A stretch of 48,845 bases of DNA from an uncultured Clostridia bacterium. Its GTDB lineage: Bacteria; Bacillota; Clostridia; Christensenellales; Borkfalkiaceae. Of this stretch, positions 2,673 through 48,845 are shown piece by piece. The position numbers were made by a program, and so were the translations under genes. How positions within the stretch are numbered: the first letter of the stretch is position 1; each line of letters starts with the position of its first letter. The notes under the pieces were generated by a model. That model was not told the DNA's origin, ran no database searches, and saw only the letters and a program-made list of their open reading frames with translations. The stretch covers positions 50,453 through 99,297 of the forward strand of contig CALVZM010000046.1 in NCBI GenBank assembly GCA_944372515.1, in the 5' to 3' direction.

Positions 2673-3169
2673 CGCGGGCATGCCCCGCATGGGATTTTCA
2701 AGGGACGTTGTTCCTTGAACGGGGCTTGTAAGGGGCGGCGCCCCTTACAAAAGAAATAAAATTTTGGAAATCGGAATAAAGTTCCGCACCGATCGCCCGA
2801 CGGGCGATAACATGGGTTTCCAAAGGGGTATGCCCCTTTGGCGAGGGCGCGGGAGCGGCGTTCCCGCATAAAATAAGCCTTTGGACGGCGAAGCGAATGC
2901 TTCGCGCAAAATCGCCCGACGGGCGATAACATGGGATTTTCAAGGGACGTTGTTCCTTGAACGGGGCTTGTAAGGGGCGGCGCCCCTTACGAAAGAAATA
3001 AGCCTTTTGAAATCGGAATAAAGTTCCGCACCGATCGCCCGACGGGCGATAAGCCGCAAGGCACAGTCTTGCCTGAGCGTTCGGGAAGAAACGGAGGGCG
3101 CCGCCCTCCGGACCACCCGCGAAGGGACAATGTCCCTTTCGACACCCGCGTTGCGCGGCAGGGCGCCGC
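2673..3169. repeat. Block 1: mosaic array of short palindromes between fhs and glnS
   Basis: About 17 short inverted repeats follow one another, each with 6-8 base arms and a 2-5 base loop. Examples: 2673-2688 (CGCGGGCATGCCCCGC), 2699-2717 (CAAGGGAC/GTTCCTTG), 2728-2748 (GTAAGGGGC/GCCCCTTAC), 2772-2786 (CGGAA/TTCCG), 2792-2808 (ATCGCCC/GGGCGAT), 2820-2841 (CCAAAGGGG/CCCCTTTGG), 2849-2867 (GCGGGA/TCCCGC), 2888-2905 (GCGAAGC/GCTTCGC), 3056-3072 (GCAAGGC with GTCTTGC), 3093-3109 (GGAGGGC/GCCCTCC) and 3121-3140. No convincing gene lies in this 545-base gap, although open frames run through it on the minus strand. The same words recur at 45.2 and 48.6 kb. I do not recognise a named repeat family. 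Confidence 0.8.
2689..3051. repeat. Long direct repeat inside block 1 (two copies of about 120 bases)
   Basis: Bases 2689-2809 and 2931-3051 are nearly identical at a constant offset of 242. Each copy carries the CAAGGGAC, TAAGGGGC, CGGAATAAAGTTCCG and ATCGCCCGACGGGCGAT words in the same order. This points to a recent duplication or insertion of a multi-word segment. Confidence 0.8.
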
Positions 3170-5613: not shown

Positions 5614-5798
5614 TGAAAAACAAGACGAAAAACGCAAAAACGACGCAAAGCGGCAGATGCTGTAACGGCAGCGGCCGCGCACAGAACGGTCAGAGCGGGC
5701 AGAACGCACAGAACGGTCAGAGCGGGCAGAACGCACAGGACTGCCACGGAAAAAGAAGCGGCGGAAGCGGCGCGCGGGCGCAGCACGTAGAGAGATGA
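5613..5798 (+). CDS. Small Gln/Gly/Asn-rich protein, 61 residues, unknown
   Basis: The ATG overlaps the last base of the rubrerythrin stop (TAATG) and has an AAAGGAG site upstream. The product is basic and low in complexity, with a Cys pair near residue 16 and two copies of the nonapeptide QNGQSGQNA. The repeat is also exact in the DNA: a 27-base unit occurs twice in tandem at 5681-5734. Its stop overlaps the start of the next small gene as ATGA. I recognise no domain. The ribosome binding site and coupling on both sides argue that it is translated; the low complexity is the reason for caution. Confidence 0.5.
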   Translation: MKNKTKNAKTTQSGRCCNGSGRAQNGQSGQNAQNGQSGQNAQDCHGKRSGGSGARAQHVER

Positions 5799-11867: not shown

Positions 11868-12141
11868 AAGCAAATGCGAAGAAGCGGAACAGTAATTTCC
11901 TTATATCCGTTCCAGAGAGCCGTCGGCAGGTGCGAGACGGTGCGGGGGAAGGGGACGAACTCGCCGCGGAGCAGACCGTGCGAAAAAAATTTTTTCGGTA
12001 GTGCGGTACGGGATTTCCCGTTACAGAAAGAGGATATGTCAGTATCCGTAGAGTGCGCGGCGCAAAAACGCCGCGAATGAGAGTGGTACCGCGTCGCCCC
12101 CGACGTCTCTTGCATCCGAGACGGCGGGGGCGTTTATTTTT
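11868..12141 (+). promoter_or_regulatory. T-box riboswitch, leucine specifier, controlling leuA
   Basis: The leader senses uncharged tRNA and controls termination ahead of leuA. Stem I shows the AGTA motif (11891-11894), the CCAGAGAGCCG bulge region and the GGTGCGAG-type distal loop. The specifier loop GAACTC places the codon CTC (Leu) at 11960-11962, matching the leucine gene downstream. The T-box sequence GAGAGTGGTACCGCG is at about 12079-12093 and is followed by a terminator that the antiterminator would disrupt. Uncharged tRNA-Leu (GAG anticodon) is the inferred ligand. Confidence 0.95.
12095..12141 (+). terminator. Regulated T-box terminator
   Basis: The stem CGCCCCCGACGTCTC pairs with GAGACGGCGGGGGCG and is followed by TTTATTTTTT. 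Its 5' arm abuts the T-box sequence, as expected for tRNA-controlled attenuation. Confidence 0.9.
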
Positions 12142-32051: not shown

Positions 32052-32065
32052 AAAGACAGATTGAA

Positions 32066-32188
32066 ATTCTTTGGGGCGGGGTGAAATTCCCCACCGGCAG
32101 TAGAGTCTGCGAAGCCGCGCGGCGCCACGCCGCAACGCCCGAACGGGTGCGATTCCCGTACCGACGGTATAGTCCGGATGAAAAAAGA
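32066..32188 (+). promoter_or_regulatory. FMN riboswitch (RFN element)
   Basis: The conserved RFN sequences are plain: GGGGCGGGGTGAAATTCCCC, ACCGGCAGTAGAGTCTGCGA, AGCC, GTGCGATTCCCGTACCGACGG and the closing TATAGTCCGGATG. The variable arm is CGCGCGGCGCCACGCCGC-like. FMN binding is expected to favour the terminator at 32215-32253 and switch off ribU. Confidence 0.97.
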
Positions 32189-32214
32189 TTTTTTTCAAAC
32201 GCGGAAAATTTTCC

Positions 32215-43932: not shown

Positions 43933-45204
43933 ATGTTGATCAAAAACGCGAAAATTGTTTTGCTCGACGGCGTCAGGGACGGCGATATTCTGGTGAAGAA
44001 CGGTAAGATCGTACGGATCGCGGAAAACATTCCCGCGGACGGGGAAAAAGAGAAGATCGATGCAAGCGGGCTGTATGCCTTCCCGGGGCTCATCGACATG
44101 CACGTGCATTTGCGCGAGCCGGGGTATGAATACAAAGAGGACATTCAAAGCGGCTCCGAGGCGGCGGTGCACGGCGGGTTCACGCAGGTCTGCTGCATGC
44201 CCAACACCAATCCCGTGGCGGACAACAAGGCGGTGGTGGGGTATATCCGCCGCCGCGGCGAAGAGGTCGGGCTCTGCAAAGTCCGTCCCATCGGCGCCAT
44301 CACGCGCGGGGAGAAGGGAGCCGAACTTGCCGACATCGGCGAAATGAAGGCGGAAGGGGCGGTCGCCCTCTCGGACGACGGCGTTTCCGTCGTCAATTCC
44401 CGCCTGATGCGCCTCGCCATGGAATATGCCTCCGGCTTTGGCATGGTATGCCTCTGTCATTGTGAGGACAAGGTCCTTGCCGACGGCGGCGTGGTCAATG
44501 AGGGGTACAATTCCACGCTGACGGGGCTCAAAGGCATTCCGCGTGCGGCGGAGGACATCATGATTGCCCGCGACATCTGCCTGGCGCAAAGCCTGGACGT
44601 GCCCGTGCACATCTGCCACGTTTCGACGTACAGCGGCGTACAACTCATCCGTGCCGCCAAGGCGGGCGGCGTCAAAGTTACCGCCGAGACCTGCCCGCAT
44701 TACTATGCGGCGACCGACGATATCATCCGCGGTTTTTCCACCGACACCAAGGTCAACCCGCCCATCCGCGAAGAGAGGGACCGTCAAGCCCTGCTCGAAG
44801 GGCTCAAAGACGGCACCATCGACTGCATCGTAACCGACCATGCCCCGCACCACAAGAACGACAAGGACGTGGAGTATGACCTGGCGGCGTTCGGCATCAG
44901 CGGGATAGAGACGTCTTTCGGCTTTGCGATCACCTATCTGTATAAGACGGGCATTCTGACGCTGAGCGAGATCGCCGACAAAATGAGCCGCAACCCCGCC
45001 CGCATCCTCGGGCTTGAAGGGGGTGAACTGAAAGAGGGCGCCGCGGCGGACATCCTGCTTGCCGACCTGGACAAGAAATGGACGGTCGACCCCGCCGCTT
45101 TCCGTTCCAAGGGCAAGAATACGCCGTTTGCGGGGTATGAACTCTGCGGCGAAGCGGTCTGCACCATCGTCGACGGAAAGATCAAATATCGCAGAGAGAA
45201 TTGA
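43933..45204 (+). CDS. pyrC: Dihydroorotase (class I)
   Basis: Cyclises carbamoyl-aspartate to dihydroorotate. It is an amidohydrolase of 423 residues with the metal motif DMHVHLREPG (55-64), the substrate region MPNTNPV, metal histidines in LCHCED and ICHVST, and the catalytic Asp in VTDHAPHH. It lies 29 bases after pyrB with AAGGAG upstream. The next gene is separated by a 321-base palindrome array. Confidence 0.96.
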   Translation: MLIKNAKIVLLDGVRDGDILVKNGKIVRIAENIPADGEKEKIDASGLYAFPGLIDMHVHLREPGYEYKEDIQSGSEAAVHGGFTQVCCMPNTNPVADNKAVVGYIRRRGEEVGLCKVRPIGAITRGEKGAELADIGEMKAEGAVALSDDGVSVVNSRLMRLAMEYASGFGMVCLCHCEDKVLADGGVVNEGYNSTLTGLKGIPRAAEDIMIARDICLAQSLDVPVHICHVSTYSGVQLIRAAKAGGVKVTAETCPHYYAATDDIIRGFSTDTKVNPPIREERDRQALLEGLKDGTIDCIVTDHAPHHKNDKDVEYDLAAFGISGIETSFGFAITYLYKTGILTLSEIADKMSRNPARILGLEGGELKEGAAADILLADLDKKWTVDPAAFRSKGKNTPFAGYELCGEAVCTIVDGKIKYRREN

Positions 45205-45493
45205 CCCATGCCCGCGCGGAACGGGTCAATCCGCAAGCCGCCCGCAGGGGGCGAAAGGCGGGATTCCAAAGGGGTGCTCCCCCTTTGGCAAGGGTGCGGG
45301 AACGGCGTTCCCGCAGAAAAACGCTCCTTCCGGTTGCGGAGCAAGGCTCCGCGATCATCGCCCGCAGGGGGGGAAGGCGCAAGGCGCCGCCTTGCGTCAT
45401 AACGTCCGATGTTGAGGGGCTGCCCGCCTCTTTCACCCCGCCAAAGGGTCCATGACCCTTTGGAAACCCGTATTGCGCAAGGCACAGCCTTGC
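45201..45493. repeat. Block 2: palindrome array inside the pyr operon
   Basis: Fills the 321-base gap between pyrC and pyrF; no gene is seen. The words are TTGACCC/GGGTCAA (45201-45229), CCAAAGGGG/CCCTTTGG (45266-45288), GCGGGAAC/GTTCCCGC (45296-45314), GCGGAGC/GCTCCGC (45336-45352), CGCAAGGCG/CGCCTTGCG-like (45378-45396), CCAAAGGGTC/GACCCTTTGG (45441-45463) and GCAAGGC/GCCTTGC (45477-45493), with GCCCGCAGGGGG segments between. No promoter or T-run terminator is evident, so the array is probably transcribed as part of the operon mRNA. Confidence 0.8.
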
Positions 45494-48595: not shown

Positions 48596-48840
48596 GGCAA
48601 GGCTGCGCCTTGCCCAGTATGGGATTTCAAAGGGTCGATGACCCTTTGGCGGGGTCAAAGGGGCGGGCAGCCCCTTATGATAAAGAAGCCTTATAAAGCG
48701 GAACGGAGTTCCGCGCCCGACGCGGGCATGCCCGCGTTCAACCGCCCGCAGGGCGGTAAATAGCGCAAGGCAAAGCCTTGCTTCAAAGGTCATTAAGGGG
48801 CGCCGCCCCTTCAACCCCGTTCAAGGGACAATGTCCCTTG
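48596..48840. repeat. Block 3: palindrome array after pyrD
   Basis: Nine palindromic words in the 288 bases to the window end: GGCAAGG/CCTTGCC (48596-48614), CAAAGGGT/ACCCTTTG (48628-48648), AAGGGGC/GCCCCTT (48658-48676 and 48795-48811), GCGGAAC/GTTCCGC (48698-48714), CGCGGGCATGCCCGCG (48721-48736), ACCGCCC/GGGCGGT (48741-48757), GCAAGGC/GCCTTGC (48765-48781) and CAAGGGAC/GTCCCTTG (48822-48840). Here the arms are perfectly complementary. No gene is seen. The array may continue past the window. Confidence 0.8.
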
Positions 48841-48845
48841 AAAAT

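Follow-up and report, generated by a model that had tools for sequence, protein, structure and literature searches.

Ordered intergenic arrays of a GGGATT-tagged double-hairpin repeat in Christensenellales genomes

What are the dense strings of short palindromes that occupy three gaps between genes in the genome of an uncultured Clostridia bacterium? We analysed the 48,845-nucleotide stretch that carries them (the window), which is the right half of contig C46 (G000:C46:50453-99297) of a 1.57-Mb MAG (G000) in 96 contigs, approximately 90% of whose sequence was covered as stretches. A preliminary description had read the three blocks as strings of short inverted repeats drawn from about nine separate words in differing order, and had proposed either a modular mobile or recombining repeat system or a combinatorial hairpin code. 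Blocks 1, 2 and 3 contained 9, 6 and 9 perfect hairpins (stem of at least 6 bp, loop of 3-5 bases), where dinucleotide shuffles gave 0.65, 0.5 and 0.26 (at most 3, 3 and 2 in 200 shuffles), in agreement with the reading as strings of inverted repeats. Across G000, hairpins with a stem of at least 8 bp numbered 402 as against 98 in shuffled sequence, and 300 of the 402 were intergenic.

The repeated unit, which we call U, is 55 bases long and consists of an unpaired GGGATT tag, a first hairpin, an unpaired CGGGG and a second hairpin. Hairpin 1 has a stem of 9-10 bp and a triloop (for example TTCAAGGGAC gat GTCCCTTGAA); hairpin 2 is also a triloop hairpin, with 6-8 bp (for example AAGGGGC ggc GCCCCTT). 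The inner hairpins are 3 (GCGGAAC, GCGGAGC), 4 (ATCGCCC) and 5 (GCAAGGC), which run 5-4-3 when the element is reversed. An element comprises U, a core of either hairpins 3-4-5 or a short linker, and an inverted U, with the tags facing outward. All three blocks shared this syntax: an opening U (U+), then hairpins 3, 4 and 5 in set order, and the inverted unit (U-) last. The differences between blocks amounted to tandem repetition and missing members.

Block 1 (window positions 2673-3169; this and all following features are on the plus strand except the U- units, which are on the minus strand) fills the gap between fhs (formate--tetrahydrofolate ligase) and glnS and reads U+ 3 4, U+ 3 4, U+ 3 4 5, U-, the U-3-4 part occurring three times before hairpin 5 and U-. 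Its first U (2691-2747; C46:53143-53199), with tag, hairpin 1, CGGGG and hairpin 2, is followed by hairpin 3 (CGGAATAAAGTTCCG, 2772-2786) and hairpin 4 (ATCGCCCGACGGGCGAT, 2792-2808). The second copy (2814-2867; C46:53266-53319) is of a CCAAAGGGG / GCGGGAGC subtype and precedes a variant hairpin 3 (GCGAAGCGAATGCTTCGC, 2888-2905) and hairpin 4 (2911-2927). The third (2933-2989; C46:53385-53441) is almost identical to the first and leads into hairpin 3 (3014-3028), hairpin 4 (3033-3049) and hairpin 5 (GCAAGGCACAGTCTTGC, one of its pairs being G.T, 3055-3071). The closing U- (3092-3147; C46:53544-53599) belongs to the half that is orthologous to an array upstream of glnS in G004. Separately, positions 5678-5738 hold 2.3 tandem copies of a 27-base repeat, with 100% identity between copies.

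Block 2 (45201-45493) lies in the pyrC/pyrF gap and reads U+ 3 (4 decayed) 5 U- 5, with U at 45260-45314 (C46:95712-95766), hairpin 3 at 45336-45352 (GCGGAGCAAGGCTCCGC), hairpin 5 at 45378-45396 (CGCAAGGCGCCGCCTTGCG) and U- at 45414-45469 (C46:95866-95921). Block 3 (48596-48845), downstream of pyrD, reads 5, U+ 3 (6) 4 5 U-. It contains U (48621-48677; C46:99073-99129), hairpin 3 (GCGGAACGGAGTTCCGC, 48698-48714), an extra hairpin (ACGCGGGCATGCCCGCGT, 48720-48737), hairpin 4 (ACCGCCCGCAGGGCGGT, 48741-48757), hairpin 5 (GCAAGGCAAAGCCTTGC, 48765-48781) and a U- cut by the contig end (48794-48845; C46:99246-99297). Because block 3 runs into the end of contig C46 (base 99297), its length is a lower bound. 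A fourth array was located 9 kb to the left of the window (C46:41125-41449).

When hairpins were labelled, the order U+ 3 4 5 U- or its reverse was found in 33/33 intervals with at least two inner words, and 17 of these 33 colinear intervals had all three inner hairpins. The claim that word order differs between blocks is thus contradicted and, since the order is fixed, the combinatorial code is rejected. Nor are there about nine separate words: CAAGGGAC, CCAAAGGG and others are same-place alleles of one hairpin, linked by paired stem changes, so that the nine words reduce to alleles of approximately five hairpins at set places, plus an occasional sixth. That the words recur beyond the blocks was borne out by approximately 61 copies of U in G000, in 19 arrays on 8 contigs; block 1 alone as query gave 48 matches. 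The spacers recur too, as had been noted, and this, together with repeats that vary by paired changes, upholds the distinction drawn from CRISPR.

Four further members of the genus of G000 (G001 to G004) were available for comparison. Every one of the 161 U in the stretches of G000, G003 and G004 was intergenic. The multi-unit arrays of G000 had U+ first in 16/17 and U- last in 16/17. Adjacent U+ U- occurred 25 times in G000, 38 times in G003 and 6 times in G004, forming tandem arrays; G003 carried a short-core version, in which U+, approximately 18 bases and U- recur as a group every 148 bases or so, with at most five groups in a row. The genes beside arrays were housekeeping genes (lysS, PEPCK, dnaN, jag, holB, ricT, ksgA, alaS, cysS, ruvB, queA, tgt, leuB, pepF, fhs and pyr genes). 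In these MAG assemblies a number of arrays coincide with contig ends, so the arrays help to explain the broken assemblies of carrier genomes.

Sequence variation among the units preserved their stems. In 73 units 98.9% of stem positions were paired, with 266 two-sided changes where shuffles had 88, and pairing fell to 60% when the partner was displaced by a single column. Likewise, 43 units from several families of the order displayed 143 two-sided changes versus 34. Loops were mostly of three bases and freely variable, and triloops made up 142/187 array hairpins (76%) as against 245/1121 isolated hairpins (22%). Departures from Watson-Crick pairing were asymmetric. On the tag-first strand there were 47 distinct G.T or T.G pairs versus 8 A.C, and in other families 15 versus 1, these counts being distinct per array and position and not wholly independent by descent. 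A transcript-level constraint would track gene direction; the ratio of G.T to A.C was 21:3 in sense and 13:3 in antisense orientation to neighbouring genes, and the bias, equal both ways, is therefore tied to the strand of the element. Such an excess is as expected for constraint, or cytosine deamination, on a single exposed strand of the element. The bias agrees with the strand-specific single-strand recognition of TnpA_REP (PMC8266576), without proving the same for U. Alternatively, hairpin-templated correction, or selection for a function other than movement, could account for the compensated stems.

The same data bear on a possible role as RNA, in which transcribed arrays would tune mRNA stability or the expression of flanking genes through their hairpins. 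Many arrays lie between co-directional genes and some within operons (pyrC-pyrF), G.T pairs are tolerated in stems, and the RNA fold of block 1 greatly exceeded that of shuffled sequence in stability (z -9.6). However, its DNA fold was equally exceptional (z -9.6), the G.T excess tracked the element strand and not transcription, U orientation to transcription was mixed (57 sense, 45 antisense), and arrays were also found where the neighbouring genes diverge or converge. Block 1 had no promoter match and no sense-strand intrinsic terminator; the search for a GC-rich hairpin with a T run gave one match, on the minus strand, versus 1.5 in shuffles. No Rfam family matched the arrays, and at gathering score the whole window yielded only a T-box leader (11870-12113) and an FMN riboswitch (32063-32193), both outside the arrays. 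We consider an RNA-level function unlikely.

Comparison of orthologous sites pointed to a mobile repeat; the sites were compared between species of these gut bacteria, mobility being inferred from this cross-species comparison only, and insertion versus loss was polarised only via array-free outgroups. The fhs-glnS site spans 497 bp in G000 and 242 bp in G004, where the right half is orthologous, holds another subtype of approximately 130 bp in G003, and is without U in G001 and in G002 (72 bp in G002). At the yidD-yidC junction G003 carries an array, G004 carries one with another core and G000 is empty, and several further sites occupied in G003 or G004 lack an array in G000. At other orthologous sites unit numbers were 10:2, 8:4 and 6:1; orthologous arrays were thus present, absent or 2- to 6-fold apart in unit number. 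Units of the same type in G000 were more alike within than between arrays (type A, 0.90 versus 0.82; type B, 0.95 versus 0.89), and it follows that arrays grow locally. Filled, empty and differing sites and the likeness of units within arrays favour the modular mobile or recombining system that had been proposed.

A MITE-like element, whose terminal inverted repeats would be the substrate of a DDE transposase, would also be mobile. With GGGATT...AATCCC at its ends, the element has imperfect terminal inverted repeats of 57 bases that enclose the core, and both filled and empty sites are known. Against this, the ends have diverged from each other although the internal hairpins of each are preserved, the annotated genes flanking arrays included no transposase gene, and other families commonly have solitary U as well as same-orientation and tags-inward pairs. 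No target-site duplication was recognisable at the compared orthologous sites, which are old, with diverged empty sites and blurred exact junctions. A MITE-like origin appears highly improbable.

Repeats of the REP kind are usually linked to a Y1 transposase (RAYT), and such a link had been suggested in the preliminary description. We looked for it and found no association. PF01797 was absent from G000 and from the strong carriers G234 (a near-complete genome in 3 contigs), G512, G335, G417, G389 and G535, and it was found in 22/55 U carriers versus 137/396 genomes of the order sample. RAYT/IS200 was rejected as the mover, given this lack of association and IS200 ends in G002 and G003 that are unlike U. 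The IS200-type Y1 transposases of G003 (C1, C2 and C30) and G002 (C58) have ordinary IS200 terminal hairpins, and two of the G003 IS200 copies encode identical proteins. Reverse transcriptase (PF00078) was absent from G000-G004. An origin-near gene of G000 (L063:9384-10445, contig C78) that is flanked by two U arrays encodes a predicted protein of 353 aa with no Pfam or NCBIfam match.

How far does the repeat extend? A covariance model of U (R2), built from this genus only, matched 55/396 genomes and 34/143 genera of the order, strongly so in many families besides its own, with a best E outside the genus of approximately 4e-14. Twenty loci taken from the order-wide matches shared the consensus GGGATTC..AAGGG...CCCTT..GCGGGGT..GGGGC AGC GCCCC, and GGGATT was kept across families. 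Within its own family U was strong only in G000, G003 and G004, with a distant form in genus g3. This divergent relative (G177, G192, G006 and G123; loci L240-L254) has hairpin 1, CGGG and hairpin 2, and its arrays contain further triloop hairpins, many of the later ones being GNA-type triloops closed by C-G, which are unusually stable in DNA. The best-named relatives of glnS came from uncultured Clostridia MAGs and Candidatus Borkfalkia, a name that points to Borkfalkiaceae/Christensenellales. A scan of the glnS locus across relatives found no hairpin clusters. In the phylum sample 7/397 other genomes gave weak matches (best E 2e-5), possibly remote relatives or chance. An exact pattern had 0 matches in viral contigs, and annotated phages gave a single weak match. 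Weak look-alikes on plasmids of Pseudoroseomonas and Streptomyces were excluded from membership; those of Pseudoroseomonas cervicalis, an alphaproteobacterium (L300, L301), are intergenic double hairpins of the form GGGGTCC-HP-GCGGGGTCC-AGGGGCnnnGCCCCT. We found no description of the GGGATT family in the open-licence literature.

The arrays of G000 were unevenly placed. They occupied 8/96 contigs, compared with a random expectation of 16.3 and a minimum of 9 in 20,000 simulations, and 8/19 arrays lay on two origin-region contigs (C78 and C14; 4% of the genome; expected 0.8) that carry dnaN-yidC-jag and holB-ricT-ksgA. In the 1.9-Mb genome G025, 14/14 U fell inside 98 kb around dnaA (C1:55944-154219); in G234 (C3), 6/6 chromosomal U loci were within approximately 0.65 Mb of dnaA; and G512 had a U cluster on its dnaA contig. 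E. coli BIMEs bind gyrase, and U arrays might similarly bind a protein, such as gyrase or an origin-region factor, and be selected near the replication origin, as the concentration in these four genomes would suggest. However, among the matches listed for G417, G496, G335, G436 and G286, U was dispersed or not found on the dnaA contig, the sister species G001 and G002 have no U, which is therefore dispensable, and clusters are equally expected from local spread of one founder. We judge selected protein binding distinctly unlikely. Origin clustering is a lead and no general rule, and a founder's local spread explains it as well as function does. A more specific proposal, which we regard as rather doubtful, is that machinery other than Y1/RAYT moves an order-wide hairpin family by recognising the GGGATT double hairpin as ssDNA, with insertion favouring single strands exposed at the origin and so giving origin-centred arrays.

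We conclude that the arrays are likely to represent a non-autonomous, probably mobile REP/BIME-like repeat whose tag is new and whose unit combines two hairpins. The tagged strand, folded while single-stranded, would be recognised by a trans-acting enzyme or a replication-linked process that copies the element into intergenic sites, and arrays could then arise through slippage or unequal exchange. The case that the system works like REP/BIME is strong. U is a short, extragenic palindrome in many copies (four genomes had between 11 and 75 each), and its inverted units around a linker, often in tandem, follow the REPIN/BIME layout. The preliminary contrast with REP as usually one or two units was too narrow: BIMEs consist of REPs and inverted REPs in tandem mosaics (PMC8266576), clusters, inverted dimers and stem-alternative subfamilies are known among REPs (PMC3733652), and tandem arrays also occur in REPINs (PMC3116915). 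With REPINs/BIMEs and their TnpA_REP (RAYT) (PMC3116915, PMC8266576) U shares inverted pairs, a variable linker, tandem clusters and compensatory linker changes, and strand-specific recognition of a tagged hairpin is known for that system. In contrast to it, U lacks a Y1 association and its core has ordered hairpins of its own.

With GTAG and CGTC REPs (PMC3733652) U has in common extragenic palindromes with a 5-13 bp stem, a short loop and an unpaired conserved end tag, as well as alternative complementary stem residues, frequent GT pairs, inverted dimers, clusters and a patchy distribution. In that survey both families were reported from phyla other than Bacillota; GTAG families were tied to RAYTs, and CGTC REPs, like U, were without a dedicated transposase (PMC3733652). 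In contrast to both, U has GGGATT and a second tag, CGGGG, two hairpins and a Bacillota host, and no GTAG or CGTC tag was found at the hairpin foot. The GGGATT-tagged double-hairpin repeats are outside the GTAG/CGTC superfamilies and not RAYT-linked. The double-hairpin elements and GC clusters of fungal mitochondria (PMC4478555; Paquin et al. 2000, cited there) are similarly described as GC-rich, intergenic, sporadic and apparently mobile with no known dedicated enzyme; they reside in organelle genomes, and the likeness is one of description, with no sequence relation claimed.

BOX elements of Streptococcus pneumoniae are modular (boxA-boxB(n)-boxC) and intergenic, and the number of boxB copies in the middle varies. 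Compared by description, they differ in sequence, and in U arrays the end unit recurs inverted and every module forms a hairpin of its own. REP/BIME are among the commonest short repeats in many bacteria. Here a REP-like family that has a distinct tag, two hairpins per unit, a set multi-hairpin grammar and no associated Y1 transposase extends over dozens of Christensenellales genera, and the GGGATT family makes the spread of transposase-less REPs testable in new hosts.
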